64,000 nt of DNA, taken from Clavelina lepadiformis (lineage: Eukaryota; Chordata; Ascidiacea; Aplousobranchia; Clavelinidae). Of this stretch, positions 21,545-64,000 are shown in pieces; position 1 is the stretch's first letter, and each line of letters begins with the position of its first letter. The notes beneath the pieces were generated by a model that was not told the DNA's origin, made no database searches, and was given only the letters and a program-made list of their open reading frames with translations. The stretch lies in assembly GCF_947623445.1 (NCBI RefSeq), contig NC_135246.1, positions 16,351,856 to 16,415,855 on the forward strand. The letters run 5' to 3'. The position numbers and the translations under genes were made by a program.

Positions 21545-21621
21545 ACTAAGATGAGAAGTTAATTCATATACAGTACTTGCTAGTTAAGTTTCCAGTCGTG
21601 ACAAAGTCCGAGAAAAAAGTG

Positions 21622-38334: not shown

Positions 38335-41300
38335 TTAAAGCGAGTCCTCGGCTGTGATTGGTGCAAGCGTGTCATTTTCGTAGATATTCGCTTCTACCTT
38401 CGGGACTGGTTTCACGGGCTTAGTAAGGTGACCAACGATGTTGTAAAGTTTCCCTTTACGTCTTTTGTAAATCTGAATATATTTATAGATATGATTTCAG
38501 ATGCAATGCGAGGAAATGGACTACATGTGTAGACCACTTACCAACACGGCGATCAGAACCACCAGTAAAACACCAACCACTCCAGCTGCGATATAAGCCA
38601 CGAGTTTGGGAATATCAAGTGCAGACTGTGAAAAATTCTGCTGCCCAGCTCTTGGCACTGCATCACCCGTTGTCGGAATTTCTAAAAACACCTTTTTAGT
38701 TGATAACTTCGGCTTGCCCGGTGAAAATATTGGTTTTTTAACATATCAGTGTAAACTATATCGACTATATAAGACTTACTTTATTTCTTAAAGTTTTTTA
38801 AAACATGGCAACTTTTCAAAAAACGATATGCTTTATACTTTGTTAGCATTCACCAACATCTTTAACAAATAACGACAATTTAATTTTCTATTAAGAAATG
38901 TGGAAACCGCCTTCGTGCTTATACTCACTTTTGCATTGTGTTCCGTTTCCAAAATATCCCTGAACACAAGTACATGTAAAACTACCTTCTGTGTTCCAAC
39001 ATTTAGCGTTTAGATGACAGGTGTGAGCTCCATCAGCGCATTCATCAAAATCTGCGTGAACAGAGCAGCTAAACGTGACATTATAGTCTTTAATTGTTCT
39101 CATGAATTTTCCCAAGATACGGTAAACATTTAAAATTTTACAATAAGAAAAATTTTTCATAAAATACTGAACCTTGACAATAATATCCATCACCAGAATA
39201 ACCATCTTTACAAGAGCAGCTGTAACTTCCATAGTGGTCGATGCATGTTGCATTTGTATGACATTCATGATTTGTTTCATTGCATTCGTTGACATCTTTA
39301 CAAACAGGACGTCATTGTACAGTACTTAAAGTATGACATTGCTGTATATGCTGCTAAGGGGTATTCTGGTATCAATATATTACCACTATCTGACACAATT
39401 CACAGTATAGAAAACTGCAGTTGATCTAAATACTTACTTGCGCATTGCAGACCATCTCCTACGAAGCCAATCTTGCAACCACATTCAAAAGAACCAATAC
39501 TGTTTATGCAAATCGCTTCTTCATGACAATTTTGTAATAAAGTCGAACATTCGTCAACATCTAAAAAACAACACACGCAAAACAAGGTTTAAGCGATAAC
39601 CTACTCACTTTTCACAAGGTTAGGCTGCTATCAAATAGACGTGAATATCAGGCTATTATACCGTTACAAACTGTTCCATTTCCAGAGTAGCCATTTAAAC
39701 ATTGGCAGATGAAACTTCCTTTTGTGTCTACACACATTGCTGCTTGGTGGCAACTATGATTCTCCATTTCACATTCATTCACATCTAAACTCAAATTGCA
39801 TTTTCATTTATTGTGTTCTGTTAAATTTTGGTGCTTTCTGTCTAGCAACTTAATAATTAACGAAAATTTGATTTTTTTTACTTTGACAAGTGTTTCCGTC
39901 TCCAGTAAAGCCAGCATTACACGAACATTCAAACAATCCAACAATATTTTTGCAGGTAGCGTTGTCGTCACAGTCGTGGATTGGATTGTTACATTCGTCA
40001 ACGTCTGCAAAAAGATTTTGTATTTATTAACGGCTCAAAGTATCCACTAACCATCGCCTGTTAAAAACGTAAAGTTTATAATGCTTTTACCTTTACAAAC
40101 CGTTCCATTTCCAGTGTAACCCTTCCAACACTGACAAGTGAAACCTCCCTCAGTGTCCACACAGTTTGCCGTTTGATGGCAGTTGTGAGTGCTGGTGTTA
40201 CATTCATCTACGTCTAAATGACGACGTTATTAAATAATATTCTGCGAAGTGTACTTCAGTTTTATACAAACGTTACAATTTGTTTAAACAGTTTAAAGCA
40301 TAAAAACCTTGCTCATATCGAATTTACTTAAACACATTCTGCCATCTCCGGTAAATCCATTATTGCATGAACATTGAAATGTACCAACGGTGTTTGTGCA
40401 TTTAGCGTTTTTATCACAATCGTGCAATTCCTTTGAACATTCGTTCACATCTGTAAAAATGTTTTGCTTATAGTAACTAACGTCATAAAACTTTTCAGTT
40501 CAAAGTTCTGGTTACAGGCCGACAGCAAATTTATCTTTTTTACCTTTACAAACTGTTCCATTTCCAATGTAACCATTCAAACACCGACAAACAAAACTTC
40601 CTGCAGAGTCTATACAATCTGCCGCTTGATGGCAATTGTGAGTTTTTGCTTCACATTCATTGATATCTTAAGTTGCAATTTTATTTAAACTTAAAGTTTC
40701 TTGACTACCACATTTCACTTCAATATAAATATGTTTTCTGCAGAAAGTTCGAATAAAATAGCTAAAACCAATTTTACTTGAACAAATTCTGCCATCCCCT
40801 GTAAAACCAGTATTGCATGAACATTGAAATGTACCCATCGTGTTTGTACACAAAGCGTTTTCGTCACAATTGTGCAATTCACTCAGACATTCGTCCACAT
40901 CTTTAAACGTAATTGGTTTGAAAGTGACGGTATGGATTAGGTTACCTTTAACTTCTAACTGTAAAAGTAATAATGTATTTTTTTTCTATACCATCACAAA
41001 TTTTTCCATTTCCAGAATGACCGCTGAAGCATTGACAAGTAAAACTCCCTTGAACGTCAGTACAGGTTGCTGCTTGATGGCAGCTGTGAATCTCCATTTC
41101 GCATTCGTTAATGTCTAAAATTATCAAATTCATTCATATATCATTTGTAATTTTTGCTTTACTTTTAAAGAAATGTTAATGTGGTTAAAACATATGCTTA
41201 AAAAAGTTTACAAAAGCCAAATATACTTGCACAAATCCTGCCATCGCCAGTGAACCCATTATTGCATGAACATTTAAATGAACCAATCGTGTTTATACAC

Positions 41301-44014
41301 GTGGCGTTTTCGTCACAATCGTGTAGCTTAGTGTTGCATTCGTTTACATCTGCGAAAATATTTTGTTTAAAATTATCGACCAAAATGTGTTCTGTTTCCT
41401 TTGGTTTTACCATTGCAATCCCTTCCATTTCCAATGAATCCATCCAAACATTGACAGCTAAAACTTCCTTCTGCATCAGTGCAAATTGCCGCTTGATGGC
41501 AGTTATGAACGTCCATTTCACATTCATTCACATCTAAATTGCAACTGAATTAAAAACTAGTGAATATAATTTCACCTTTATAGAAATTCAACTAGTTTCC
41601 AAAAATTATACAAACAAAACTTGCAAATATTGAATTTTACTTGAACAAATCCTGCCATTTCCTGTAAATCCATTGTTGCATGAACATTGAAATGTACCAA
41701 TCGTATTTGTGCATTTAGCGTTATCGTCACAATTGTGTAATCCACTTAAACATTCGTCCACGTCTATAAGATTGTAACAGATTAAATGCTTATTTAAAAT
41801 CTTGTTTAAGCAACTTGGTTTCTCACCCAATTTACAGCATTTTCCCAACCAGCCAGAACTACAAGAGCACTGGTTCGATATCAGGATACCGCCATTGTAA
41901 CATTCCCGATTGCATGGACGATTCTGGATAAGATCGGTAGGACAGCTTGCACCACCACACTTTGAAGTTTGAAGGATTTCTCGAGTCCTCGTGGAAATGC
42001 CATCCGGACCACATTGTGCTGAGCAGTTTGTCCACGGAGACCACGATGACATTTCACAATCAACTGCCAGCCAAAACAGGCACTTACTTGTGAAGTCGGT
42101 TTTAATATTATTTATCAGAAGTAAGTTCTGCTTAAAATATTTCTTACATGCACTACTACATCCCTTTTTATTTCTGTGCCAACGCTTGATGACATATCAT
42201 ATTTGACATTATAAAATGTAAAAATTAAGATTTCAAACGCGGAAATAAACAACAGTATATACCTGGACAACAATGCTCGTTGCAAGGCTGAATCTGATTG
42301 GTTGGACCATTGCAAGATGTTCCACCACAAGAGTTTTCAGTTGAAATGCTTCTCGCTCTCGTCTGCGTGCCCCTTCCACATTCACGCGTGCAACTAGGTC
42401 AAAAAAACCTTTTATAGAACTTTAAATTAAATAAAAAATTTACGTTTATATACATTAATAACACACAAGCATTTGTAACACAATCACAATTTCTTATCCA
42501 ATATTAATCACTACATTCACTTGAAAATTGTACCAAATTGCCACAATAAGCAAAATAAAAGCAGATTTGTTCATAATGTTTAATCAGAGATTAATATATT
42601 TCGGACTTTGCTTAAGTCCTTTATCAGAGTACATAACACAATCCATAAATAGGGCCTACACGCTATTTAGGAAAAGTATACAAATCACTTAAACCTGTTG
42701 ACAACACCAATTTCTTAATTTCCTGAAGTTTTGTTAAATTCTAGAAGTTTTTAAATCTATTTTAACTGTTTACCGATTCCAGTCTGTCCACTTGGACCAG
42801 ATACAGTTAACTGGACAACAATGCGTGTTGCAATTCCGAATATCTGTTGACAATCCAGAACAACCTAAGCCACCGCAGCTGGTAAAAGTTCCAATCGACC
42901 TCGACCGAGTTTGAGTTCCGGTTCCGCATGTTGTTGAGCAGGAACCGTATGATGTCCATGCTCCCCACGCACAGTTGACTGGACAGCATCTTGTGTTGCA
43001 AGATCTTGATTTGGATGAAGATCCAGAGCATTTACTTCCTCCACAACTGACGGAAACAGCGGGAGATCTGTATCTGTATTGAGTTCCACCATCACAGGAA
43101 CGCGAACAGCTTCCATAACTTTCCCACGATCCCCAACGACAATCAACAGGACAACATCCTGTGTTACATCTTCTGGGGCTTGGAAGATTGCAAGATCCGC
43201 AAGCCCCTTTTGTCCGTGTAATTGTCGGACTTTGCATTCCTCCACCGCAAGTTCTGGAGCACGCTCCCCAAATCCATTGACAAGGTGTGGTATTACATCT
43301 GTATCTTCGTCTCCGCCTGTCGAAATAAAATTTATAGTAAGGAGCAAGTCCAAAAACAAGTTGGCCCTAAATAAAAGAGTGAGAGCACATGGATTGGTAA
43401 AGCATTCTTGTTTTTACGCAGCTACCGGTACCGGACTAAGCTAGAACCAACAACCAAAACTGAACTGCAATGTAGGTTTGCATCTAAATTAACCAGTACA
43501 AATATCCCAATTGTAAACTATAGTTCAGGTTTATTTAACACGAAATGTGTTTGTTACACAATTAAGTACGCTTTTGTTATATGCATATTAGTAATTACTA
43601 TTTACTTGTCGGCCGCTCAAAACATTCTATTTATACTTGATTCAACTACCGGAATCATCCCAATGGTTTCTGTTATGATGACGTAATTAGAACCATCAAC
43701 TTTATCATAATTAAGAATGACTTTTCGTTTTTTGCCACTTGTTTATGGCAATAGCTGCTTAACCACTACATATTAGTACAAGTCCTTTCTCCAGTGTATT
43801 TGATGACAACTACTCTTTGATTTAAGACCAACTTGCTTTTGGACTTGACTCTTACTTTAAAGAGATTAATAACGTTAACGTATGAATTGGTGGGATTTCT
43901 CATAAGGTTTTTAATATTTCGTCCGTTCGTGTCTCGATACACTTACCAAGGCCTTGAAATGTGGAACTGGCTATAAAATAGCAGTAACACCAAAAGGATT
44001 TTGAGGTTTCGCAT
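38335..44014 (-). CDS. Gene A: transmembrane protein with 5 TSR and 13 EGF modules, complete
   Basis: A type I surface protein. Exons: 44014-43947 (signal peptide, [14 protein letters not shown]), 43316-42774 (TSR 1-3 and the start of 4), 42393-42263, 42063-41827 (TSR 5), then thirteen EGF exons of exactly 123 nt each: 41763-41641, 41533-41411, 41349-41227, 41114-40992, 40900-40778, 40666-40544, 40450-40328, 40213-40091, 40004-39882, 39784-39662, 39560-39438, 39295-39173 and 39051-38929. Last come 38681-38542 (linker and [21 protein letters not shown]) and 38472-38335. The total of 2,856 nt is exactly 952 codons. The TSRs show WGAW and WSPW motifs with CSxxCGxG. The EGFs start D-[VIF]-[DN]-E-C and carry the C-x-[DN]-x4-[FY]-x-C-x-C hydroxylation motif, so they are calcium-binding type. 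The mature N-terminus starts WRRRR, a possible furin-type site. The 45-aa tail has a KRRK anchor, KPVKPVPK and YEND. Role unknown; adhesion or recognition is an inference. Confidence 0.88.
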
Positions 44015-44945: not shown

Positions 44946-47900
44946 TACGACAACTGCCCTCTCAGTATTCAAGGAGCTCGTGGCAATCACACTGATATCC
45001 TCCGACTGTGTTCCTGCACACACTGCCACCACCACAAACACTTTCATTTAATGAGCATTCATCGACGTCTACATAAGTCAAGGATAAGGAAAATGAGCTG
45101 AACATACAATATCAACCTGAAGAGTACTTTAGTTTTAATACTGTAAATAAGAATAGGAGTCAAGTGTGGACTATATGTATCGGCTATACATTAAATCGTT
45201 ATGTCGCCAAAAACTTAATTACTTTACCAGGAGCAAGTAGTTAAGAATGACTAGAAATTACCATTAAAAGTTATTAAAACACTGTTAGCTGTTTTTTTTA
45301 CAAATACTATTCAAGATTTTGTTGTATATTTGATAATTTATTTCGGATCATTTCATAATACCTGGGTTGCATACACAATCGAATAAATCAACATCTTCGA
45401 AAGCAACTGGCATTCACGTGACAGTCAATAAATGGGGTCGAGTATAAGTTTAATGCTACAAAGAGAAGAAGTTTTTCGTGAATTAATGTAGCATATTTTT
45501 GAAGTATACTACTTGTTGTAATCGACTAATTTGGTTGATTTAAATATATATGGATTGCTTGTAACAAGGTTTTTTCAATGTTTATCATTTCTACTGTAAA
45601 AAGCTTCGTTTAGTTTTCACATCTAAATAATAAACTAAAATATTAAAAGAATGCAGAAAATACAAATATGGAAACCGATTAATTGATTTTACTTAATAAT
45701 TGTGCGAACACTGCCTAAGGCTAAAAAATGAAATAATTTATAGGTTACACGAACAGTATAATACCTCTGCATGCTGTACCGTCTCCAACGTAGCCAGGAA
45801 AGCATTCGCAAACGTAACTTCCATCGGTATCAGAGCAAATTGCTTTTTCTAGGTCGCAGTTGTGGACTCCACTTGAGCATTTGTCAATATCTGTGATTGT
45901 ATAAGTTTGCTTAATTACTTCAGAAAAATCTGCTTGCATAGGTCAGATCTGATCCGGCAATAATATTGCAATAATGAAACTGTTGCTTTTGCCGTGGTTG
46001 GTGAAAATGTCACCATACAAATAGAAATTACCTGAACAGTGAGTTCCATTTCCTGTATATCCTTCAAGACAAGAGCAGAAAAAACTTCCGGCAACGTTAA
46101 CGCACAGTGCGTTTAGATCACAGTTGTGTTCGTTTTCTTGACATTCGTCGATATCTGCGCGCAATTATTCATAACAGTATTTACAAGTTAAACTTAAGAG
46201 TTCCTTTGTTTTCAAATCACTAAAATAGGTAAATATTTATATTTATATAAAGTTTACTATACAGACTATATTACCTTCGCACACTACCTCAGTTCCTATG
46301 TCGCCTTTCAAGCATTCACAAAGAAAATTTTCACCGATGTCAACACACCTCGCTAACTGTGGATCGCAATTGGCACATCGGTCTATATTAACAGTCGGAG
46401 ATATTTCATGACCTATTTCTGAATTCAGTTTATAACACTGCTCTGAAACCTTTGCTAAATTAGCGATGCTAAAAAGATAATAAACAAATTACTTGTGCAT
46501 TGACTCCCGTCTCCAGTGAAACCAATGGTGCAAAAACAAATGAAACTTCCTGGCAAATTTACGCAATATGCATTGGGATCACAAACGTCGCTTTCTTGGA
46601 GGCATTCATCAACATCTGTACGTATGTTACGTGTTTTGTGCTCGTTTGACGTGTCTTGTGTTTCTGCCTTCCCCCGGAGGCGCTGATGTTTGTAATTGCG
46701 CCTTGCTAGTTGGCGAACGTGTCACTCTACCGTTGCCTGAGCTGTGAGCAAACGTGCCTGTTTTTAGTTTTTACCCTTTATTTTATCAAATACAATGCTA
46801 TAGTTTAACTGCAGGTCTATTCGAACCAGCATAAGAAAAGGCCGGTAACACGTATAACAACTGTTGTATAATTTGAAAAAACGTAACGCAAAACGTATTA
46901 ATTTTGTAAACGTTTTGAATTATTTATATAACTTTACACAACACAGTACAACTTTATATAACTACAATAATATTTTTTTGTTGAAAACTTGGGGTATAGT
47001 GTTTTTACCTTTACAATTCACCCCATTTCCTGTATAGCCACTCAAACATTCACAGAGAAAACTTCCATTGATGTCAATACAAATCGCCATTTGTCTTTTC
47101 GCAGTTGTCATTTGCAGTTGCGCATTCGTCAATGTCTGTGTTAGGTGAACAAGAATTTATGTTTGATAATAAAGTATGCAGTGATAGCATTTTATGTGAA
47201 ATAACAGAAATCAAGTTTGTTTCCTGGTAAGCAGACTATTTTATTACAGCCATCGCCACAACAGTAAGCTTGTCAGTAGGAAGTAAAATAACGCTTCAGA
47301 TTACTTGAACACTGGGTCAGATCCCCAGTGTATCCTTCAGTACAAACGCATTCGAAACTTCCTGGAATATTGATGCATAATGTGTTGTTACTGCTACAGT
47401 TATTGCCTCCGGGATTCATCAATATCTAAAAGAGTTTAAGATCGGGAATCAAAACCTTGCTTGTTATGCTTGTATATCACATACCTATAGAACTAAGCAC
47501 ACAAAAACGTTTAAAAAATTAAGAGGTGATTTTTGCATCCAATTGCAGCAATCTATATAAATTCAGCGATAAATTGAACATCGAACGCCATCACTCATAC
47601 CTTTGCACTCTACTCCATCTCCAGTGTATCCACTCAAGCACTCACAAAGAAAGTAACCCTCAATATCAATACATTGTGCCCTTTCCGGATCACAGTTGTT
47701 GAATCAATCGGAACATTCGTTGATATCTGAACCAATTAAATAGTGCGTTTAGATTTTAAACTTTGTGTAAGTTGCTTCTTTGCTTGTCTTGACAAAAAAT
47801 TGCGAAAGGATCTTTTTTCATACCACTATACGGTTAAACATGGTGTAAAAAATTCAATTTTACTTGAGCAAATCCTGCCATTCCCAGTGAAACCGGATTT

Positions 47901-49546
47901 ACAAAAACATGTAAATGAGCCATATGTGTTTGCGCACACGGCACTTGCTTCACAATCGTGCAATCCACTCGAACATTCGTTCACATCTAGAAAAGTTATC
48001 CTGTGTGTATACCGCCACCACTCAAAATATTTATATCAAAATTTAATCACGCAAGATAATAATTTTACTAACCAACACACTTCATTCCAATTTCAATGAA
48101 ACCAGACTTGCATGAACATTCAAATGAACCCATTATGTTGACGCACGCAGCGTTGCGGTCGCAATCGTACAATTCGTTTGCGCACTCATCCACATCTGCA
48201 AGTAGCGTTATCACAGAAGTTGTTACTTGTGCATCACACACGATATGATGAATTTCAGAATGAATTTTTCATTTTGAAAAGCTTCAACTTTTTACTTTCT
48301 TCACAACATCTGCCGGACCAACCTTCATTACAAGAGCACTGGCTGGACATCAGAATATCGTCATTGTAACATTCCCGATTGCATGGACGATTCTGGATAA
48401 GATCGGTAGGACAGCTTGTACCAACACACTTTGAAGTTTGAAGGATTTCTCGAGTCCTCGTGGAAATGCCATCCGGACCACATTGTGCTGAGCAGTTTGT
48501 CCACGGAGACCACGGTGACATTCTACAATCAACTTTTAAAACATGGATGATTTCCAGTTTTTACAGCATATTCTCATGAAGAGAATAAGGTTGCTTAACA
48601 CGTTAAGCATGCTTGTCGTTTACAGCTACATATGAATACTGTAATAACTTGCACTTTCTGAAAACAAATAAGGACTAGTAACCTGGACAACATTGATGGT
48701 TACACGACTGCTGTTCAATGGCTATACAAGGTTTCCCGCCACAAGATTCTTGAACCAAAACTTTTCTTTGTCTCGCTTGTGTTCCGCTTCCGCTTCCGCA
48801 TTCATGCGTGCAACTACGACATACAAAGAATGTGTGTTCGTTTAAAAAGAAATTTGAATCGTTTTTAGCATTAACTTTTTACGATAGGTATATACGTCTC
48901 TGTCTTACAACGTATGTCTTACAACCACGTGTATCGAACACCATATTAATTTTAGACATTACAATTGCCTATAACAGTTACATGTAGATTGATATTTTTT
49001 ATTAATCATGTAAAATCTTTTCCTTAAAGTTTTTACCTGTCCCAGTCTGTCCACTCGGACCAAAGGCAATCAACAGGGCAGCAATGAGTATTGCCAGATC
49101 TTGAATCGGATGAAGATCCAGAGCAACCACTACCTCCACAACTGCTGGAAATGGCAGGAGATCTGTATCTATAATGAGTTCCACCACCACAGAAACGCGA
49201 ACAGCTTCCATAACTTCTCCACGATCCCCAACGACAATCAACAGGACAACATCCGGTGTTACATCTTCTAGGAGCACGCAAGCACCTTTTGTCTGTGTAA
49301 TTCTCAGACTTTGCATTCCCCCTCCACATGATTGGGAACATGAACCCCAATTCCACTGACAAGGTGATGTATCACATCTTCTTCGTCTACGCCTAAACCT
49401 GTAAATTATTATCAAATATGAGATCCAGAAGGTTTTGTCCAAATGTGCTGTTCCTGGTTTATGCGTTGCACTTACCATAAAGACGTTGAAATGTGACACA
49501 AGCTACAGAACAGGAATAGCAGAAGAAGCGTTTTGACACTGTGCAT
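44946..49546 (-). pseudogene. Gene B: decaying TSR/EGF paralogue
   Basis: The order matches gene A. Signal exon 49546-49476 (VKTLLLLFLFCSLC) is followed by TSR exon 49392-49037, TSR exons 48813-48683 and 48532-48296, then EGF exons. The 49392-49037 exon lacks one whole TSR relative to A (171 nt) plus a further 16 nt between TKGAC and RRCNTGCC, which shifts the frame. EGF exons with open frames are 48195-48073, 47986-47864, 46615-46493, 46418-46275, 46154-46032 and 45890-45765. Broken ones are 47726-47601 (TGA after ECSD), 47425-47305 (121 nt, frameshift), 47135-47009 (127 nt, frameshift) and 45068-44946 (TGA where paralogues have AGA). The 5' half is like gene A, while the 3' EGFs are like genes C and D. 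No transmembrane exon was found. Splice sites are mostly intact, so decay seems recent. Confidence 0.75.
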
Positions 49547-52231: not shown

Positions 52232-55200
52232 CTCGACAATCTCCGTCTCTGTATTCAAGAGGCTCCACGCAAACACATGTGTGTCCTCCGATAGTATTTC
52301 TACAAACACTGCTGCCACCACAGACATTTACATTCAATGAGCATTCATCGATATCTAAAACAATTCACACAGAGTAGTGTAAGCATATGTCTTCGCATGT
52401 TAAGATAACAATGTGTTTGTGGCTTGTTTATATGCTTTTTCATCGAATCGGTTGATATACTGTAGATGGTCTCAAATATACCTGCGCAATCTCTACCGTC
52501 TCCAATAAAACCCGGGTTGCAAGCGCAGTCGAAAGAATCGAGAGCTTCAAAGCATGTAGCATTTACATTGCAATCAACTAACGGCGATGAACAACTGTTT
52601 GCTTCTAAAACGTAACATATTTCCTGTTTTAACTGTAGTTGGCACTAACACGCATGTTTCTTTAGGAAAGGCAATAACTCTTTCCTGTATTTTACACAAT
52701 ACTTTGTATGATGGAAAATGCAGTTGTACATGTCATATTTTAAATCCAAACCAGATTTAGAGATTTCAAAATAAGAAACCAGTGATACGCTTAAAATAAG
52801 AAAAAAATCTTCATAAATACTTCTACAGGTTTTTCCATCTCCAATGTATCCAGGAAAGCATTCGCAAACATAACTTCCGTCCGTATTAGTACAGCTTGCA
52901 CTTTGTAAATTACATTTGTGGACTCCACTCTCACATTCGTCAATATCTGTGAAATGAGGTTTTATTCGATATTAGGCTATAGTTAGTTAGATTACACGAT
53001 GGCATTTTATGTTTTTCACAAACACAATAGTTTCACAATGCTGCCACTCTTGCTGTCAAAAAAAGTTTGCCGTTACATCTAAAATTCGTTGGTGAATATT
53101 TGCTTGTGAACTAGTTTTATTAGAAGTATAGTTTATTGGCATTCCTTTTCAAAAATAATGTGTAAACATGACAGCATTTAGCACATTTCACACCACCTTC
53201 GCAATTCTCTCCATTCCTGGTGTAACCTGGCAAGCATTCCGAAAATGAATTGCCGTTACCATTGCATCTGGTTTTCTCTGGATCGCAGCTGGAAAACGGA
53301 TCAACTCCCACGTTTGGAGTTGGCGGTTGTCTTATTTCTGGGAATGGCAAAACCGTTTAGTCAAATACGTGGTAAACAATATTTTCTTCCAGGTACAGAT
53401 ATATCGCAATTAATATTTTTGAAAAGTACCTGTACATTGTGTGCCGTTACCAATATACCCATCAGGACAAACACAACCGAAACTTCCAGGAAAGTTAACG
53501 CATAATGCATTTGGATCGCAATTACTGGCACCTTCCAGACATTCGTCAAAGTCTGTTTGCATAATTCAAATAACATTAAGTTTTTCAATGTAATTAAAAA
53601 AGTATATAGAAAATTCATGTTAATCGATTTTGTATAATTTTTAAAAGATTGTGTACGTCTGTTTTTGATAACTTTGTCAACTGCACATACCACGGCAATC
53701 CGTCCCAACTCCGGTGTAACCATTCAGACACTGACACAGAAAATCTCCACCAATATCTATACACCTTGCTCTTTGTGGGTCGCAGTTGTGATTTCCAGGG
53801 GCACACACGTCAATGTCTGTATTCAAAATTATATGTTAGAGCAATCAGAAATTATGCTTAAAAGCAATTACAGTAAATCAGCTTTGCATCCTCAAATAAG
53901 CATTTTGACTTGTGCGAGATAACTTTCGAAAAAAAAATCATCTTTTTACTCAGTAATAAATTCTAATTTTGAAAAAATTCTTAAAACTTACTTGCGCACT
54001 GGGTCCCATCCCCAGTGTATCCTTCCAAACAAGCACACTCAAAGGTTCCCGGGAAATTACCACATACGGCGTTGGGGTGGCAAATAAGTCCCCCTGAGAT
54101 GCATTCATCAATATCTGCATATGAACACACGCGAAATGATGAGGGATCCGATTTCGTCCCGAAGACGGAAAACGAACAATTAAATATTAGTATTTTTGTA
54201 TAAAGCTTAAAAATCAGATTTCAATCATTCTTAACAGTTTTTAACTAATTAATTATTAATATTATTATTATAATAATAATAATATATTATACTATAATTA
54301 TTATTATTGATATTATTATAACAGATTTTTATCAATTAATATTATGAACAAGCAGCCTCCTTAAATTTATAAACAAATAATAAACACTCGCTAGAAAATT
54401 TACATCCTATACCTTCGCATTCAACCCCATCACCAGTGTAACCACTGAGACATTCACAGAAAAACGTTCCATTTGCATTAATGCATCTTGCTCTTTCTGG
54501 GTCACAGTTATGATTCCCACTGACACAGATATCGACATCTAAACAGCCAAAGATACCACAGAATAGCATTAGTTTGGCGAGGTAAATGAAATTAAGTTGA
54601 TTTTCAGTATGAGTACACACTGACAAAATGAATATTAATATTGTTCAACGGTGATAAAATCAACAAGTAGCCCAACTGGCGTACATATATTCCATGCAAT
54701 CCGTCACCAGTATATATCCGGAGACAATCCTTTAAAACTTCTCGTAATGCTATAATGCGATAAAAAAACGTGTAAGAAATCTATATCTTAAATTCTGTGG
54801 AACTTACTGTCGCAACTATATCCATCGCCTGTGTAACCGTCTGGGCATAAACATAAGAAACCTCCGTCAAAATTTTCGCAGAGCGCTTTTGGATCACAAG
54901 CCGCCGATCCTTCGGTGCATTCATCAACATCTAATATGTAATTATTTCTTGAGATTTAACACCGATTAATGAAGTTGTATAGACTATATGTAGATATAAT
55001 GTTATTAATGCACGCTTAATAAAAGTTCTATCGCCTTACACCTTGTGTCATGCTGGCAGCGCTCTTTGGTTTGAAATTATTCATACAAGAAACAAGCGCT
55101 AAGTACTACGGTATATTTACTCTGAAGAGGACAAATTAGCTGATAACCTTAACAAACCGACAAAGCCGCCAAAAACAAGACAATTTTACCTTCCGCGCAA

Positions 55201-57061
55201 CATGTCCCACGCCAACCCAACTCGCAAAAACATTCTGTTGATCTAATTTCTCCATTGAAACAAAATCGATTGCAAGGTCTGTTTTCAATCAAATCATCGG
55301 GACACGACAATCCTTCACATGAAGATTGCACTTGTATGAATCTTTCACGGGTGGAAGTTCCGCTTGGCCCACACTGTGTCGAGCAATTGCTCCAAGGTGT
55401 CCAAGGCGAAACCTGGCAGTCAACTACGAGATATAAGTGATTAATATTTAAACGCAAAAGCTAGGCAATATCGGTAAAAATTTAAAAGTCACGATTTGAG
55501 ATATGATGATCTGCATATTGTCAAGTCTTTATCTGCATATCGTGACCAATTTGGATAAATCTTTTCATAAAATTAAAAGCGGGATATGTATGAAAATTAT
55601 GATGTCCATACCGGGACAGCAACGTTGATTGCAAGATTCACTTTGCTCCGCTAAATCTTCGCAAGCAGTTCCACCACATGAGCCAACTACGTCTATCGTT
55701 CTGTTTCTCGTACGAGTACCGAGTCCGCATTCCCGATCGCAGCTATACGTAAAGATCTTGTTAACTTTACATTTAAATTAAATCAAACCAAAAAATCACG
55801 TGCTCAAAACTAAAACGTTTAAAATGTTGGTTAAAATGTGAACAGTAATCAGCAGTTTCAAATAAATTGCTCTACCTGGACCACATGGACCAGTCGGACA
55901 ATCGGCAATTTACCGGGCAACATACGTCATTGCATGTTTCTTCCTCCGCACTTTCACCAGTACATTCTTCACCACCACAAGTACTTACTTTTGCTATTGT
56001 TCTTGTCCGTGTTCGAAGCCCTAAAAGTTGCAATTATCTTGCTAAGAAAATCGGCTGATAACTTGTTTTGTAAAGACTTTCTATATAGAATATGTTTTAA
56101 AACGGATATTGTCGGCCTACATACTTGACAAGTTTTTTGGAAACACGTAAATCATACAGACTTCTGTTATTCCTTACCTGAATTACATGTTTTTGTACAC
56201 CCACTCCATTCTTGCCAACCACCCCAGATACAGTTAACAGCACAACATTGAGTATTGCATTCCCGAGATTCACTTAACGGTTCTGTGCAAATAGATCCTC
56301 CGCAACTCGATGTGGTCTGGATCGCTCTGGAACGCGTCTGCAGCCCACCATCACATGTTGCTGAGCAATAATCGAAGCTACTCCAAGGTCCCAACTTACA
56401 GTCTACGGGACAACAGCCCGTGTTGCAGGGTCGGAAATCACTCGTCGAGCCAATGCAAGATTGACCACCACAACTAGCTTCCGTTTTTATACTTCTAACC
56501 CGAACTCGCGTTCCACCGCCACAACGCTGTGAACATAATCCGAAGCTGCTCCATGGTCCCCAAACGCAGTCGACAGGGCCCGTAAAACAATGCTCTGACG
56601 ACAATGTCGAGCCATAGCAGGGTAAACCACCACAGCGAGCAGTGACAAAACCTCTTGACCTTGTTCGTTTTCCCCAACCGCAGGTCGCAGAGCAGCTGCC
56701 CCAGGCACCCCAAGATGCCCACATGCAATGTCTTGGGCAACAAAACCAGTTGCAACGTTTTGCTTGTGGAAGAATACAAATTCCACAACTGCCACTTGGT
56801 TTTACAAGTATTGGACTTTGAACTCCTCCACCGCACGATCGAGAACATTGACCCCACTTCCACAAGCAAGGAGACCTATCACAGAATGGAAAGCCGGGTG
56901 TCCTATTCAAAACACAAAAAAAGAAGATAGTAAATGTGTAAAAACGTTTTTTCAATTTCAGTATTAAAAACTTTTACTTACCTTGGAGCAGCCATGGAAA
57001 GGCTGAAAATGAAACAAAGTAATAAGCCTTGTGATGGTAGTAGCAGATGTAAGACTCTCAT
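52232..57061 (-). CDS. Gene C: secreted or membrane TSR/EGF protein, 3' end not found
   Basis: Signal exon 57061-56982 ([15 protein letters not shown]) is followed by TSR exon 56902-56178 (four tandem TSRs and the start of a fifth), then 56020-55876, 55742-55612 and 55423-55190. Nine EGF exons follow: 54930-54808, 54538-54413, 54114-53992, 53816-53691, 53552-53430, 53337-53197, 52946-52821, 52604-52482 and 52354-52232. All join in phase, and the visible coding part is about 800 aa. TSRs show [28 protein letters not shown] and [15 protein letters not shown]. The 131-nt TSR exon (55742-55612) has the same length as its counterparts in A and B. The EGF at 53337-53197 is atypical: it starts EIRQPPTPN and one cysteine is replaced (FSEC where gene D has FCEC), so it may not fold normally. 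The last EGF ends in phase 1, so at least one more exon must follow below 52232. Confidence 0.82.
54245..54320. repeat. ATT/AAT microsatellite forming an inverted repeat
   Basis: A run of ATT units is followed by AAT units and again ATT units in a gene C intron. It can fold into an almost pure A/T hairpin. Confidence 0.8.
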
Positions 57062-59957
57062 GTTATGATGTTACATAAACACTCACGTACTATAAAGTTG
57101 ACCTGTCAGTTAGATGCGCAACGTAAAACAAGCTTAAAACTCATATCAAACATGCTTTGTTTCATGGAGACTACCTTGTCGCAAGCTCGAACATGATCTA
57201 TAGTCAAAGAGCAACACAGTTTCCAAACCAGTTTGCTCAAGATAATACTTTCACTAAACTGAAACTTTAGATATACTCGACTTAAAACCGCTTCTTATGT
57301 TTATAATAAAGTTGAAAACGTTTAGAGTTTTCCTTTGTAATTTCTAGGAAATTTAGATATTTAATTTTACTTTAATAATGTTTGCTCAAGATGCCTGTGC
57401 TGATTTTTTCTTGCTTGAATGCAGTACACCATACTGCAATTGTTAGGTTTGAGTCTCTGTTTTGCTTTTACGTACTTGTCTTCCCATTTAAGCGTCATTA
57501 GTCTTCTTCATTGCACTCTGTAGGTTGCGACTTATGTTTCTAAACAGGACGCAAGTGAGGCAAATTATTATGAATTTTCACAAAGACATCATTTTCTTTT
57601 ATAAAGATCGCTAGACGTGCTCTTCTAAAACTTATGTGCTTCCATACTCCGAGCCAGGAATGTCAGCATAGTTACTGGTTGTCACAAATCTTCGACATTC
57701 CGTAAACGTCGAAAGCATTCTCACTTAGTTAATTAAGATAAAAATCCATTCTTTATTGCACGGCTAAGCTTTAAAATGAAGTAATGTCTGGCAGAACCGA
57801 CAGGAAGTGGACTTGCAACTAAAAACTTACAGAGACACGATCATTTATATTTGGAAGAAAGATGTCACGATGTTGAATGCTTCAAACACAATGCATGAGA
57901 CGACTGATCGTCTCAATTTGTAATAAATTCTTTGACAGTTTTGATGTATTATCAACTAACTAATGACATAATAGTGCTTAATCAGACAGGCTTTGTCGCA
58001 AAAAGTACAACGGGCTCCAAATGTCTTGCCCAACAACTTATCTGTAAAATCTGAACGTCGGTAGCGACGGCGGTTTGCGCTGGACTATTTTACAGAATTT
58101 ATAACCATGTCCAATATCGTGATACCCGACCTTAATTCGACGCTTTCCTATAATTTATACTCTCTCGCTGTAACGATTCTTCAGTGCAAAAGAAAATGGA
58201 TTTATATTTCGAAAGCGTCGAAGTGTAAGTGTAAAGCACAACGGTAAAAAGTGAAAGACAAAAGCCAAAGTTTCTTTCGAATCGTGGTTGCTCGCAGTCG
58301 TGATCAATCAAAACTGCGGTCTGCCCGAGACTTTTGACAAAACTAAAGAACACGAAAAAATGAACACGTCTAAAACGTTTACATTTCATATTTAATTACC
58401 GGCATTGTTTGACGTCAGTAGTGTAATGATGAGATGGTTATCACTGCAGTATACAAGCAACTTGCCGATAACAGACGGACACTTTTTCAATAACAGCACA
58501 AGTTTTTACTATTCACATGGTTCATAGCACGAACTAAAAAACGATGTTTGCTGATTTTGTAAACGACTTAATTCCGAAAAATCCGCTTTATTAGAATTTG
58601 GATAAATCCTTATCAGGTAAAACTCTATTGCTAATTCTATAATGATTAGCAACAAAATTCAACAGTGATTAAAAAATTTTTTAAAAAAGAGATTTTTAGA
58701 AAAGAAAAAGATTTTAAGGCCATTAAGTCTATTTTGCTCGCGTAGTTTGACCACTATCCAAGTCTTCCTGACACCGTTTGCGCATTTTGATCCACACCAC
58801 TACCGGTCAGTGTGCTCAGGTACTCAACTTTAGAGATTAATAATTCAAGTCTAGACCAAATGTTTTTATAACTTGCCATTGACGATGTAATCGGACAGTC
58901 GTTTTTTAAACCTGCCAAAGCACTATGGAGTATTAGTAGGCTATTCAATTTGACCAGAGAATTCTCTTCAAAAAAAACAGCCGTAATAGTATTAATTATA
59001 CCCTCGAAATTACATAAAATACTTAACTTGACTCGAAACAATATTTGAAATGACTCAACTTGACTCGAGTTGTTACATTTTTATTATACAATTCAGCAAT
59101 GAAGAAAAACAAATGTGCTATTGTGTTGCTCAACACAGTAAAATGAACCTTAAAATGATCTTACTTGTGTATACGCGTACAGTGCAGCAAAACGAAACAA
59201 AGTTTATGAAACTTCTTAACTTTTCTTGTTGATAGAAATGGTGTTTTTGCTTTCTGCATTGTTTGATCTCAGATATCGGTTGACTCAATATGACTTAGGT
59301 CATATTTATAAAAAGACTCGAATTGACCAGAGTCACTACTTTCAAATGACGCAATTTGACTTGAGTCTTAGAAGGTAAATGACTTGACATAACTTGTGAC
59401 TCGAGTTCGATGACCTGGTAAGGACACTGCGGCGTATTTGATTAAAATTTCCAAACTATATACAATATATGCTTTACAAAAGAAAGTGTACATCGAAGTG
59501 TGCGTATACATAATGTAAGGAATGAAATTTTTACGAGTGTTTGTTTTTAGGTTTATATCAAGATCATGTTCATCACTAAACTAAAGAAAAGTACCGTATG
59601 CTGTCATTCGTTTTGGACTTAAGTTTTCTAACAGTTTTTTAAAATTAGATCAAGGTGGAATTAAGCCAATTTGTGGTTAACAATTTGTGAAAAAAAACTC
59701 GTTGGCGGTAAAATATTGTTGGATGTGAATAAGGGTGTCTAATTGATTGGTGCTGGGTCAAGAACGATTTCTGAAAACAAAATTCGCTTGACAAATATTT
59801 TAAAGAAAATGATTCGTTTGTGTTAGGGTAAGTCTACCATTGAAGGGAAAATTTTAACTATACTGCAACTAAGCGCCATCAAATTATACAGAAATTAGCG
59901 TGTCCAACTATTGTGCTTTTAAAATCAATTATTTCTGCTATCGCTACGCATGCTTAC
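57062..59957. other. Spacer between genes C and D
   Basis: It contains the gene C promoter and the unseen 3' end of gene D. A minus ORF with an ATG at 58389 (85 codons, to 58132) has a basic start and hydrophobic patches but no recognisable domain. 59650-59840 matches 51910-52110. No transmembrane exon in the needed phase was identified. Confidence 0.4.
58985..59425. repeat. TGACTCGAGT-rich degenerate repeat
   Basis: Variants of TTGACTCGAGT, TGACTCAACTTGACTC and AATGACTTGACAT recur at least eight times (for example around 59032-59070, 59280-59300, 59318-59345 and 59385-59410). This resembles a decayed element with subterminal repeats, but no sharp ends or target duplication are visible. Confidence 0.5.
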
Positions 59958-62900
59958 CTTCACAATCTCCGTCTCTGTGTTCAAAAAGCTCCTCGCAAAC
60001 GCATCTATGTCCTCCGATAGTGTTTATACAAACACTGCTGCCACCACAAACACTTACATTCAATGAGCATTCATCGATATCTAAAGAAACCAAACAAAAG
60101 TTTTTAAGCATTTTTTGCTTGTAAATAAGATGCGTTTGAGGCATGTGACGTTTTTATTCTTCAAACTGCTTGCTATGGATGAGCTTAAATACCTGAGCAA
60201 TCTCTACCGTCTCCTACAAATCCGGGGTTGCAAACGCAGTCAAAGGAATCGAGAGCTTCAAAGCATGTAGCATTTACATGGCAATCAACCAACGGCGATG
60301 AACAACTGCTTGCTTCTAAAACGTAACATATTTCCTATTTTAACTGTAGTTGGCACTAACAGGCGTGTTTCTTTAGGGAAGGTAATAACTCTTTCCTGTA
60401 TTTTACACAATACTTTGTATGATGGAAAATGTAGTTGTACATGTCATATTTGAAATCCAAACCAGATTTAGAGATTTCAAAATCAAAAACCATTGATACG
60501 CTTAAAACAAGAAAAACATTCTTCATAAATACTTCTACAGGTTTTTCCATCTCCAATGTATCCAGGAAAGCATTCGCAAACATAACTTCCGTCCGTATTA
60601 GTACAGCTTGCACTTTGTAAATTACATTTGTGGACTCCACTCTCACATTCGTCAATATCTGTGAAATGAGGTTTTATTCGATATCAGTTAGTTAGATAAC
60701 GAGATGGTGTTTCATGTTTTCACAAACGTCATAGTATCATAAAGCTGTCTCTCTTATTGTCAAAGAAACTTTGTTGTTAAGTATCAAATTCACATATCAT
60801 TATTTGCTTAATTGCAAATAGTTTCACTTAAAGTTAAAATAATATAACTTATTTTCTTTTTCAGAAGTAAACGTGTAAAATTGACAGGATATCACAGAAT
60901 CACACCACCTTCGCAATTCTCTCCATTCCTGGTGTAACCTGGCAAGCATTCACAAAAAAAACCGCCATCATTGTCAACGCAGCTGGTTTTCTCTGGGTCA
61001 CAGTTTAAGCACGGATCGATTCCTGTGTTTGGAGTTGGCTGTTGTCTTATTTCTGTATATGGCAAAAGTTTTTAATTAATTAAGTTGTCTAGATTTTCTT
61101 TGCTGTAAGCTTACTGTACAGATATAACACAACTAATATTTGTGAAAACTTACTTGAACATTGTGTCCCGTTACTGATATACCCATCAAGACAAACACAC
61201 TCGAAACCTCCAGGAAAGTTAACGCATAATGAATTTGGATCGCAATTACTGGCACCTTCTAGACATTCGTCAAAATCTGTTTGCATAATTCAAATAACAT
61301 TAAGTGTTTTAATGTAATTAACAAAATATATCGAAAATTTGTTTAAACCGATTTTGTATAATTTTTAAGAGGTTGTGTACGTCTGTTTTTGATAACTTTG
61401 TCAACTGCACATACCACGGCAATCCGTCCCAACTACGGTATAACCATTCAGACACTGACACAGAAAATCTCCACCAATATCTATACACCTTGCTCTTTGT
61501 GGGTCGCAGTTGTGATTTCCAGGGGCACATACGTCAATGTCTGTAACCAAAGTCATGCTTAAAAACAATTACCATGAACCAAGACTGCGTCGTCAAATTC
61601 GGCATTTGGACTTGAGCGTGATAAGAATTTCCTTATTTTACTGAACAACAAATTTAAAAGTATAATAAAAAATGTTTTAAAGTTACCTAATACGCATTGG
61701 GTCCCATCCCCAGTGTATCCTTCCACACAAGCACACTCAAAAGTTCCCGGGAAATTGCCACATACGGCGTTGGGAGAACAATTATTTTCTCCTGAGATGC
61801 ACTCATCAATATCTGCATATATATATACATGGATAGAAGATAAATCGGTCCTGCAAAGGTTTCAAAATTATTCATAATATTTTGTCAGAGTTGTAAGTCA
61901 TGCCGGGACTTTCGGGTAGGGTTTGGGTTCGGGCAGAGTTCTGGCAGAGTTCGGGCTTAAGTTTGAAAAAAAGCTAGCCAAATTTGAGTCCGAATTTAAA
62001 CTTAAACTTTGCAGCAGCCACGACAGCTTTGCTTCATAATTTCGCTTTCTTTACGCAAATGGGCATGAGCGCAGAGTGCTAAACACCTATCGCAGTGACT
62101 CGCAGCAATTTAAAAAAAGAAGACAGTCAAAGAATGGCATCAAAAGATGACTTTTTCCATCTAGTAAATTTAAATTTCCGAGCAAATTCGAACTTTAAAT
62201 AAGTTATCGGGTAAGAACCGGGTTCGGGTTAGCAATATAAGACTCATATACAACTCTCTTTGGAATCAATTTTTTTACTATACTTCGATCATGGAACCTC
62301 TATTCACCACAAAAAAGCAAACCGTTTTACATTCACTCACCGTTGCACGAAATCCCATCCCCAGTATAGCCTTCAGCACAAGAACATACAAAACCTCCTG
62401 GAATATTGCTACATATGGCGTTGGAATCACAATTGCTAACATCTAGAATGCATTCGTCAATATCTGCAACGATAAAACAATAAGAAGTTAGCATTTTTGT
62501 ATAAAAAAGCAGTGTTTTTACAAAGGTAACAGAATTATTAAGCTATCTCTTTTGCTGTCAAAGAAAATTTGTTCTTACGTTTCAAATCCACATGTAATTA
62601 TTTGCTTAACTGCGAATAGTTTTACCTAAAATTAATATAACTTATTTTCTTTTTCAGAAGTAAACGTATAAAATTGACAGGATATCACAGAATCACACCA
62701 CCTTCGCAATTCTCTCCATTCCTGGTGTAACCTGGCAAGCATTCACAAACAAAATCGCCATCGTTGTCAACGCAGCTGGTTTTATCTGGGTCACAGTTTA
62801 AGCACGGACCGATTGCTGTGTTTGGAGTTGGCTGTTGTCTTATTTCTGTATATGGCAAAAGTTTTTAATTAATTAAGTTTTCAAGATTTTCTTTGCTGTA

Positions 62901-64000
62901 AGCTTACTGTACAGATATAACAGAATTAATATTTGTGAAAATTTACTTGAACATTGTGTCCCGTTACTGATATACCCATCAAGACAAACACACTCGAAAC
63001 CTCCAGGAAAGTTAACGCATAATGCATTTGGATCGCAATTACTGGTACCTTCCAGACATTCGTCAAAATCTGTTTGCATAATTCAAATAACATTAAGTGT
63101 TTTAAAGTAATTAAAAAATTATATAGAAAACTTGTGTAAACCGATTTTGTATAATTTTTAAAAGATTGTGTACGTCTGTTTTTGATAACTTTGTCAACTG
63201 CACATACCACGGCAATCCGTCCCAACTCCGGTGTAACCACTCAGACACTGACACAGAAATGCTGCACCGATATCTATACACCTTGCTCTTTGTGGGTCGC
63301 AGTTGTGATTTCCAGGGGCACATGCGTCAATGTCTGTAACCAAAGTCATGCTTAAAAACAATTACCATGAACCAAAACTGCGTCGTCAAATTCGGAATTT
63401 GGACTTGAGCGTGATAAGAATTTCATTTTTGTACTGAACAACAAACTTAAAAGTATAATAAAAATGTTTTAAAGTTACCTAGTACGCATTGGGTCCCATC
63501 CCCAGTGTATCCTTCTACACAAGCACACTCAAAAGTTCCCGGGAGATTGCCACATACAGCGTTGGGAGAACAATTATTTTCTCCTGAGATGCATTCATCA
63601 ATATCTACATATATATATACATGGATAGAAGATAAATCGGTCCTGCAAAGATTTCAAAATTATTCATAATAATTTTGAATTAGAGTTGTAAGTCATGCCG
63701 GGAGTTTCGGGTAGGGTTTGGGTTCGGGCAGAGTTCCGGCTTAATATTGAAAAAAAAGCGAGCCAAATTTGAGTCCGAATTTAAACTTAAACTTTGCAGC
63801 AGCCACGACAGTTTTGTGTCATCATTTCGCGTTCTTTACGCAAATAAGCATGCGCACGGAGTGCTAAACACCTATCGTAGAGAAGCGCAGCAACTTAAAA
63901 AAAGAAGACAGTCAAAGAATGGCATCAATTAAAAAGATGACTTTTTCATTTAGTAAATTTAAATTTCGAGTCTAATTCTAGTTTTAACTAAGTTATCGGG
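59958..64000 (-). CDS. Gene D: EGF-module part of a C-like gene, 5' end beyond the window
   Basis: Twelve EGF exons in transcription order: 63604-63479, 63333-63208, 63069-62947, 62845-62702, 62463-62341, 61812-61687, 61540-61415, 61276-61154, 61052-60909, 60658-60533, 60315-60193 and 60080-59958. All are 123, 126 or 144 nt and symmetric phase 1-1, so the frame stays open. Modules are near copies of gene C's ([28 protein letters not shown]). Both 144-nt exons keep all six cysteines ([18 protein letters not shown]), unlike their gene C counterpart. The first four exons are a copy of 61812-60909 at an offset of 1,793 bp, introns included. TSR and signal exons should lie to the right of the window if the family order holds. 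The exon after 59958 was not found. Whether the gene is functional is unknown, but every visible exon is open. Confidence 0.78.
60735..62230. repeat. Internal tandem duplication of gene D, unit 1
   Basis: This unit contains four EGF exons and their introns and is repeated at about 62535-64000 with a constant offset of 1,792-1,793 bp at every exon. Intron sequence is shared as well, including a GGGTAGGGTTTGGGTTCGGG stretch near 61912 and AAGAAGACAGTCAAAGAATGG near 62120. Copies look about 95 percent alike by eye in exons. Confidence 0.85.
62535..64000. repeat. Internal tandem duplication of gene D, unit 2
   Basis: Second copy of the four-EGF block, running past the right edge. The GGGTAGGGTTTGGGTTCGGG stretch recurs near 63707. 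One EGF exon unique to the gap between the units lies at 62463-62341. Confidence 0.85.

Follow-up and report, generated by a model that had tools for sequence, protein, structure and literature searches.

A locally expanded tandem family of TSR-EGF proteins in the ascidian Clavelina lepadiformis, probably for adhesion or recognition

In Clavelina lepadiformis we describe a tandem gene family that has expanded locally and encodes modular extracellular proteins, whose use is probably adhesion or recognition. Judged from their sequences, the proteins most likely carry heads resembling properdin and thrombospondin (TSP) on largely calcium-binding EGF stalks, either anchored or secreted. Our window, the whole stretch of DNA analysed, spans 64,000 nucleotides, and positions are given within it. 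A sequence-only reading had proposed four genes here; exon predictions confirmed these minus-strand paralogues (A, B, C and D) but not their number, as a genome search found the diagnostic linker exon at full length at 11 loci, nine within 136 kb of chromosome 7 and two on chromosome 4. The window is the left edge of the larger chromosome 7 cluster, in which a field of broken copies adjoins full loci and truncated duplicated fragments lie at 90-114 kb.

All exons are predictions from splice consensus and homology. The spliced models of A, C, D, E and G run from end to end with no internal stops, and each predicted full copy comprises a signal peptide, a head with several thrombospondin type 1 repeats (TSRs), a linker combining a TSR with a Cys-rich end, and 4-27 EGF modules; locus F is a copy with a lesion, and locus I has 32 EGF matches. 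Rfam and tRNA scans of the window gave no matches, and in the titles and abstract starts of the open-licence PMC papers that our searches returned we found no description of this family or of a TSR-EGF tandem family in Clavelina.

Exon plan, domains and protein ends

Gene A displays the plan from signal peptide (SP) to anchor:

38521-44014, minus strand: gene A, predicted with 18 exons and 912 aa: SP, TSRs, 13 EGFs and a hydrophobic, putatively transmembrane exon
43947-44014, minus strand: signal-peptide exon of A, phase 2 end, donor GTAAGT
42774-43316, minus strand: large TSR exon of A
42263-42393, minus strand: 131-nt half-TSR exon of A
41827-42063, minus strand: linker exon of A, 237 nt, with the last TSR and a small EGF-like Cys-rich end
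38929-41763, minus strand: the 13 EGF exons of A, all with calcium-binding and hydroxylation consensus
38521-38681, minus strand: terminal exon of A, with hydrophobic helix and stop

The earlier description of A as intact holds, its frame being open throughout, and with its signal exon and a terminal helix, judged by eye, A is a candidate single-pass membrane protein. A GTAAGT inside the terminal exon might lead to further 3' exons.

Much of this plan recurs across the family. A signal-peptide exon with a phase 2 end was found at all eight loci searched (A, B, C, D, F, G, H and I), and in E the signal reads directly into the TSR exon. The linker exon, with its last TSR and small Cys-rich end, has one of the two expected lengths at 10 of 10 loci searched: A, B, I and J have the 237-nt form, C-H the 234-nt form. 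The 131-nt half-TSR exon with AG/GT ends, thought to be common to all copies, is present at eight of the ten loci searched (A-H) but missing from the short searched stretch of J and from I, where a differently phased exon takes its place. A 145-nt exon stretch, the "extra TSR," occurs at six of nine loci (C, D, E, F, G and H, its intron gone in F) and not in A, B or I. EGF exons are phase 1-1, as had been claimed, in 60 of the 61 in A and C-G, and in these same 60 the AG precedes the first Cys by exactly 11 nt and the GT follows the last by 4 or 7 nt; the sole exception is a degenerate EGF of C. Together with the Pfam scores, this splice regularity leaves no real room for a chance origin.

We scanned two whole proteins, A and E, against Pfam. 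The A protein gave 13 EGF_CA stretches (E-value 2.5e-107) and the E protein seven TSP1_spondin stretches (E-value 7.4e-64). TSP1_spondin reached 112 bits in A and 212 bits in E against a curated cut-off of 41, placing both in the TSR superfamily, and EGF_CA reached 351 and 100 bits against a cut-off of 27, placing both in that superfamily too; individual exons from A, B and C likewise passed the TSP_1/TSP1_spondin cut-off. Matches in the two proteins were to TSR-class and EGF-class models with one exception, ADGRF3_N in A (34.6 bits, cut-off 31), which lies inside the EGF array with no single stretch passing. When EGFs were tested for the motif [DN]x[DNE]EC and the hydroxylation consensus, both calcium-binding and hydroxylation consensus appeared in 13/13 EGFs of A, 4/4 of E and 4/4 of G; the strict calcium consensus was found in only 5 EGFs of C, which has 8, and 17 of D, which has 27. 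The cysteine count of C is odd.

By sequence match, the closest solved structures to the TSRs of both E and G are properdin and TSP-1, which the cluster resembles in its tandem TSRs of the W-x-x-W / C-S-x-x-C-G kind, and those to the EGFs of E are NELL2, ADGRE5 and Notch. Unlike thrombospondin-1, the cluster joins its TSRs to a long EGF stalk, and neither A nor E has a TSP C-terminal region by Pfam. Many TSR junctions in our alignments read CCPxxCxW, with two extra cysteines relative to ACPINGGW in TSP-1; the corresponding DNA pattern has 29 matches in the 209-Mb genome, all 29 in the cluster. In hemicentin (fibulin-6), as in the cluster, a block of calcium-binding EGFs comes after a block of TSRs; hemicentin further contains Ig domains by the dozen and a G2F domain, neither of which Pfam reported in A or E.

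The far ends of the proteins differ. Tails were located by setting C against D and by direct reading in E, F and G; all five appear to end in short tails without a helix, and this group has probably lost the anchor. Open frames of moderate hydrophobicity (<=2.36) lie further 3' of some genes, so an extra anchor exon may exist beyond the short tails; a pairwise scan of open frames gave no convincing match for a homologous 3' exon across all genes. Locus I has a signal exon and, after an acceptor at C7:16514907, a candidate helix (hydropathy 3.28) that lies outside any full spliced model.

Duplication, internal growth and decay

The neighbour of A is a pseudogene:

44965-49546, minus strand: pseudogene B, comprising a signal exon, a TSR exon with a frameshift, the 131-nt half-TSR and 237-nt linker exons, and several broken EGF exons
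48683-48813, minus strand: 131-nt half-TSR exon of B
48296-48532, minus strand: linker exon of B, 237 nt, 90.6% identical to the linker of A

B had been described as breaking down, and its lesions bear this out: the first TSR has a frameshifting 16-nt deletion, one TSR is missing, in-frame TGAs interrupt the EGF at 47.7 kb and the last EGF, and further EGFs are broken at 47.4, 47.1 and 45.4 kb.

Genes C and D follow:

52012-57061, minus strand: gene C, open, predicted with 14 exons and 779 aa: SP, TSRs, 8 EGFs and short tail (the model omits a ninth, degenerate EGF at 53198-53305)
56178-56902, minus strand: large TSR exon of C
55876-56020, minus strand: 145-nt half-TSR exon of C (the extra TSR stretch)
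55612-55742, minus strand: 131-nt half-TSR exon of C
55190-55423, minus strand: linker exon of C, 234 nt
52012-52043, minus strand: terminal exon of C, about 10 residues and stop, no helix; that of D is similar
59739-64000, minus strand: 3' part of gene D, whose prediction runs past the window end to 71,050 and comprises 33 exons and 1553 aa, with 27 EGFs and a short tail
60909-62463, minus strand: five-EGF unit copy 4 of D (3'-most)
62702-64000, minus strand: five-EGF unit copy 3 of D, crossed by the window end, its first exon at 64,134-64,256
64,495-66,050 and 66,289-67,846, minus strand: unit copies 2 and 1 of D, beyond the window

Of the earlier picture of C as a divergent copy with extra TSRs, the 145-nt stretch remains, though it is common to C-H, and the divergence does not: C and D are a young pair, alignable over nearly the whole gene at 73-80% identity. 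An initial splice reading of C, with a phase-2 donor GG/GTGTAC, was dropped once the 145-nt exon was found. Over 731 codons the pair has a dS of 0.17 and a dN/dS of 0.32 (bootstrap range 0.23-0.45), and is under purifying selection. Only three of the first five introns of C and D matched on their own (over 39, 157 and 76 nt), so that intron divergence there seems to exceed that at synonymous sites.

Growth of D by internal duplication proved larger than had been noted, and the head of D is not within the window; its TSR and signal exons lie in the flank at window positions 69,146-71,050. Twenty of its 27 EGF exons belong to four copies of a five-EGF unit of about 1.79 kb, with unit starts spaced 1796, 1794 and 1793 bp apart and pairwise identities of 91.9-98.4%. 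Across the six pairs of units dN/dS was 0.31-0.57, and of four pairs tested none differed clearly from 1; positive selection in the units is not supported.

The locus changes by three routes: gene duplication, duplication of multi-exon EGF units within D, and decay (B, F and, at 90-114 kb, the truncated copies). Paralogues in tandem differ in age, and pseudogenes and constrained copies occur together. Birth-and-death evolution, as previously suggested, is well supported, because A, C, D, E and G are open, B is a pseudogene, F carries a lesion, the 90-114 kb fragments are truncated, C and D are young, and D has grown. Because neither the C/D pair nor the D units show a sign of positive selection in dN/dS, a receptor evolving in an arms race is mildly disfavoured.

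Proposed function and its alternatives

We suggest that the encoded proteins are rod-shaped molecules of the cell surface and extracellular space, and good candidates for adhesion or recognition; binding partner, tissue and role are here read from domain classes with a very wide range of functions. The TSR head would bind partners in the tunic or on other cells, whether glycosaminoglycans, glycans or proteins, and the EGF stalk would act as a calcium-stiffened spacer whose length differs among paralogues. A and I would display the head on cells, whereas the C-G group would release it as a matrix protein or soluble competitor. Most likely the proteins would serve in adhesion and recognition, either between cells or between cell and matrix, with the body surface, the blood cells or the larval attachment organ as possible sites.

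The proteins could instead be structural matrix of the tunic or basement membrane, a tentative but possible reading: secreted, calcium-stiffened rods (C-G) whose TSRs crosslink components of the matrix, with no recognition and with copy number neutral or dosage-driven. The helix-free short tails of C, D, E, F and G and the purifying selection on C/D agree with this, as does the proposal that the tunic-matrix module of Tuphoxin, a tunicate phenol oxidase, is TSP1 (PMC9395347). The hydrophobic terminal exon of A and its candidate counterpart in I do not fit, and 4-32 EGFs with heavy gene turnover exceed the needs of a conserved scaffold, although this is no proof against one. Tuphoxin is itself an ascidian protein with EGF_CA and TSP1 modules and a proposed role in the tunic, but its order, as given in the account cited, is EGF_CA-TSP1-tyrosinase (PMC9395347); in the cluster several TSRs precede the EGFs, and none of the nine genomic tyrosinase matches (PF00264, E <= 0.001) falls there in an intron-blind search that a domain in small exons could escape. 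Membership in the Tuphoxin family is not supported.

Polymorphic recognition, in allorecognition, self-sterility or immunity, is unlikely. Here anchored A and I would be receptors or ligands and the secreted paralogues soluble partners or decoys, and turnover with pseudogenes and segmental copies, internal repeat growth in D, and the adjoining of anchored and apparently secreted forms all speak for it. The fuhc locus of Botryllus offers a parallel, as there a gene for a membrane protein adjoins one for a secreted EGF protein (PMC3691228). According to the portion of that account cited, fuhc-sec is a two-EGF protein, fuhc-tm contains three Ig domains, the two genes share no common architecture, and TSRs go unmentioned (PMC3691228). 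Against polymorphic recognition, a nonsynonymous excess is absent from C/D and not clear in the D units, Pfam found no Ig domain in A or E, and the cluster contains no ZP match. The search for ZP (PF00100, E <= 0.001) returned 46 genome matches, none in the cluster, and was likewise blind to introns, so that a domain in small exons could escape it. An HrVC70-type egg-coat family, marked by a C-terminal ZP domain, is therefore not supported. HrVC70/HrVC120 of the Halocynthia vitelline coat and CiVC57 of Ciona resemble the cluster as ascidian proteins with many EGF repeats (12 and 24), and HaVC80 has 13, probably through duplication of one EGF domain; these proteins differ in having ZP domains, and TSRs are not mentioned in the part of the source cited (PMC9265791).

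A more elaborate proposal we consider doubtful: an undescribed ascidian complex for self/non-self or pathogen recognition, with A and I as TSR-headed receptors or ligands and the secreted C-G proteins, their anchor lost, as partners or decoys. EGF number, changing by duplication of multi-exon units, would tune reach and valency and may differ between alleles, and the CCPxxC junctions would rigidify the TSR rod.

Equally improbable, in our judgement, are signalling proteins of metamorphosis or larval settlement like Hemps or Ci-meta1, the secreted EGF-repeat proteins of the anterior larva. A secreted multi-EGF architecture is shared, and Ci-meta1 has six EGF-like and 13 calcium-binding EGF repeats (PMC3760835). 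Hemps, however, consists of four EGFs and three novel Cys-rich repeats; compared by description, TSRs are mentioned for neither protein in the cited portion of that source (PMC3760835), and no sequence feature of the cluster indicates larval expression. An assembly artefact, in which retained haplotypes or wrongly expanded repeats mimic the cluster and internal array, is very improbable: J and K on chromosome 4, which lie 23 kb apart and share 99.9% identity across 3231 bp, might represent a haplotypic duplication, but retained haplotypes are ruled out as the source of the chromosome 7 cluster by its divergence (C/D only 73-80% identical; E/G dS 0.84-1.01), the D units differ mutually by ~1.6-8%, and the PacBio assembly is reported at QV 67.4 (PMC10884593).

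Several modes of gene-family change meet at this locus: a form with an anchor stands next to a secreted group that is probably derived, a pair of young copies, an array of multi-exon units that has grown, a neighbour in decay and a debris field. The CCPxxCxW junction provides a simple marker for finding relatives in other tunicates. For C. lepadiformis a chromosome-level assembly is published, and long reads, RNA-seq and an alternate haplotype are deposited (PMC10884593). With these data it can be tested whether a colonial chordate varies in the length of its EGF stalks and in whether such proteins are anchored or secreted.

Exon plan and genomic spread

The window covers 16351856-16415855 of chromosome 7. 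All exons in the cluster are predictions from splice consensus and homology. A signal exon ending in phase 2 is present at each of the eight loci searched for it: A, B, C, D, F, G, H and I. E reads its signal peptide straight into the TSR exon. There follows a single large exon with several thrombospondin type 1 repeats (TSRs) and then, at six of nine loci searched (C-H), a half-TSR stretch whose length is always 145 nt, not found in A, B or I. Next come a half-TSR exon, invariably 131 nt long (A-H, eight of ten loci searched; not found in I or J); a linker exon, holding the last TSR and a small EGF-like cysteine-rich end, whose length is 237 nt (A, B, I, J) or 234 nt (C-H) over all ten loci searched; and EGF exons in phase 1-1. 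Across A and C-G, AG stands 11 nt ahead of the first cysteine and GT 4 or 7 nt past the last in 60 of 61 EGF exons. The final exon encodes either a hydrophobic helix or a tail of about ten residues followed by a stop. The sequence-only reading had described the 131-nt, 234-237-nt and phase 1-1 EGF exons, and all three hold; it had also assigned extra TSRs to C, where the 145-nt stretch is indeed present, but as a feature common to C-H rather than C's alone.

The D linker exon gave 27 matches in the genome searched (209.06 Mb, 95 contigs; PMC10884593 gives kaClaLepa1.1 as 210.1 Mb in 102 scaffolds). Eleven were full-length: nine on chromosome 7 (A-I, 16.394-16.525 Mb) and two, J and K, on chromosome 4. 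One was a fragment at 16,474,181, and 15 covered the TSR part only, eight of them at further TSRs in the cluster. J and K lie 23 kb apart:

Chromosome 4, 20131718-20131948: relative J
Chromosome 4, 20154665-20154895: relative K

Over 3231 bp they share 99.9% identity, which could reflect a very recent duplication or a haplotypic duplicate (retained haplotype). Among the genome-wide TSR matches listed, other dense groups, possibly other TSR gene clusters, lie at 26.17-26.25 Mb on chromosome 1, 9.08-9.28 Mb on chromosome 5 and 23.07-23.08 Mb on chromosome 4. A pattern search of the 58 kb left of A turned up no EGF or TSR exon. Left of the cluster are two other features (window coordinates, as below):

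21550-24111, plus strand: zinc carboxypeptidase exons, Peptidase_M14 in three successive ORFs
29497-29925, minus strand: hAT transposase C-terminal dimerisation remnant (20.5 bits, Pfam cut-off 21.4)

Open, broken and anchored copies

Predicted spliced models of five genes are continuous end to end, with a single terminal stop:

Gene A: 912 aa, 18 exons, 13 EGFs; predicted, open
Gene C: 779 aa, 14 exons, 8 EGFs; predicted, open, omitting a degenerate EGF at 53,198-53,305 that has no proper splice sites
Gene D: 1553 aa, 33 exons, 27 EGFs; predicted, open
Gene E: 669 aa, 9 exons, 4 EGFs; predicted, open
Gene G: 612 aa, 10 exons, 4 EGFs; predicted, open

A Pfam scan of whole proteins A and E returned TSR-class and EGF-class models; A also matches ADGRF3_N (34.6 bits, cut-off 31) inside its EGF array, with no single stretch passing. 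The earlier description of A as intact and membrane-anchored agrees with its open model and with the hydrophobic helix, judged by eye, in its predicted terminal exon (38,521-38,681), although a GTAAGT within that exon means that further 3' exons might follow. Locus I has a signal exon, an open TSR stretch, a linker and 32 EGF matches above 20 bits (separate pieces rather than one spliced model), with a candidate exon bearing a strong helix downstream. C and D have ten-residue tails that resemble each other, and the same is true of F and G; the candidate tail of E is equally long and has no close match. Farther downstream of some genes are open frames of moderate hydrophobicity (up to 2.36), so an anchor exon may have been missed. 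Because A and I, both without the 145-nt stretch, both have the helix (a candidate in I), we infer that it was probably lost in the C-G group, giving an apparent split into anchored and secreted forms within the cluster.

B is breaking down, as had been proposed: its first TSR has a 16-nt frameshifting deletion, one TSR is lost, two EGFs contain in-frame TGAs and three more are broken. It looks like a mosaic by sequence, because its linker (90.6% identical to that of A) and first EGFs match A, and two of its last EGF exons are 76-78% identical to C and D with no match in A. In F the intron before the 145-nt stretch is gone, and a duplicated stretch there shifts the frame into a stop; its remaining exons, found exon by exon, are individually open. 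H is open from signal peptide to linker, with all EGF matches degenerate. Pieces of G at 90.8-114 kb give nine matches at 84-93% identity. They lie among segmental repeats, whose two longest members span 5.2 kb (95%) and 5.1 kb (90%). These duplications, and a fragment near H, have the following positions:

90,000-114,000: tandem and inverted segmental duplications bearing truncated G copies
Chromosome 7, 16474181-16475029, minus strand: TSR-signature DNA in common with H, on the opposite strand and about 4 kb from H

Family history and the array of D

A tree of ten linker peptides (K left out) places A, B, I and J apart from C-H with support of 93/89, below the program's strong mark, and both the 145-nt stretch and linker length agree with this split. 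C/D is the only strongly supported grouping. The two genes align over nearly their whole length, the three main blocks being 78, 73 and 80% identical, so the earlier view of C as divergent fails: C and D are the young pair. Over 731 codons (signal and tail excluded) dN is 0.053, dS 0.167 and dN/dS 0.32 (bootstrap range 0.23-0.45; Fisher p 7.5e-12), so both genes are under constraint. Taken alone, their introns match in three of the first five pairs (signal to first EGF) despite a coding dS of 0.17, and seem more divergent than synonymous sites. E/G is much older (dS 0.84-1.01), and A versus C is saturated.

The internal duplication reported for D is borne out by four copies of a five-EGF unit, with starts 1796, 1794 and 1793 bp apart and 91.9-98.4% identity among the six pairs; copies 2 and 3 are closest (98.4%). 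Of the array, the window takes in only copy 4 and part of copy 3; the other two copies and the entire head of D lie beyond it. Coding differences are few: copies 1 and 2 differ by four nonsynonymous and two synonymous changes. Of the four pairs tested, none has a dN/dS clearly unlike 1 (p 0.62, 0.25, 0.12, 0.052). A GTTCGGGCAGA-type short repeat occupies the same intron of two D units (61927-61956 and 63662-63740).

With open copies, broken B and F, the constrained pair C/D, truncated copies and the array in D, the locus clearly evolves by birth and death, as first suggested.

TSR junctions and function

Many TSR junctions of the cluster read CCPxxCxW. A degenerate DNA pattern for this motif gave 29 matches in 209 Mb, all 29 within 16,394,652-16,525,664 of chromosome 7, and a reversed control gave none. 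Their carriers are A, B, E, F, G, H and I, together with broken copies. The same 209-Mb search gave none in C, D or the chromosome 4 loci; C and D each have four CCPxxC motifs in a variant form missed by the pattern. The pattern is absent from TSR matches on chromosomes 1, 2, 3, 4, 5, 6, 8 and 9, among the matches listed. In alignment with TSP-1 (...ACPINGGW...), two extra cysteines flank the inter-domain junction here; properdin has the first in one place and lacks the second. We hypothesize that these two cysteines could form a disulfide. The domain class is a known one, with a TSR-junction variant that the pattern finds in this cluster only.

TSR arrays and calcium-binding EGF rods serve as extracellular binding heads and spacers, and among solved structures properdin, TSP-1, NELL2, ADGRE5 and Notch are nearest to E. 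An egg-coat (ZP) type is not supported, with none of 46 genomic ZP matches in the cluster, nor is Tuphoxin, with none of nine tyrosinase matches there. Given these heads and spacers, we favor a predicted role in adhesion or recognition, with both anchored and secreted versions acting at the cell surface and in the matrix. Neither C/D nor the four pairs of D units tested gave a signal of positive selection; this and the purifying selection on C/D suit adhesion or matrix function no less than they suit an arms race.
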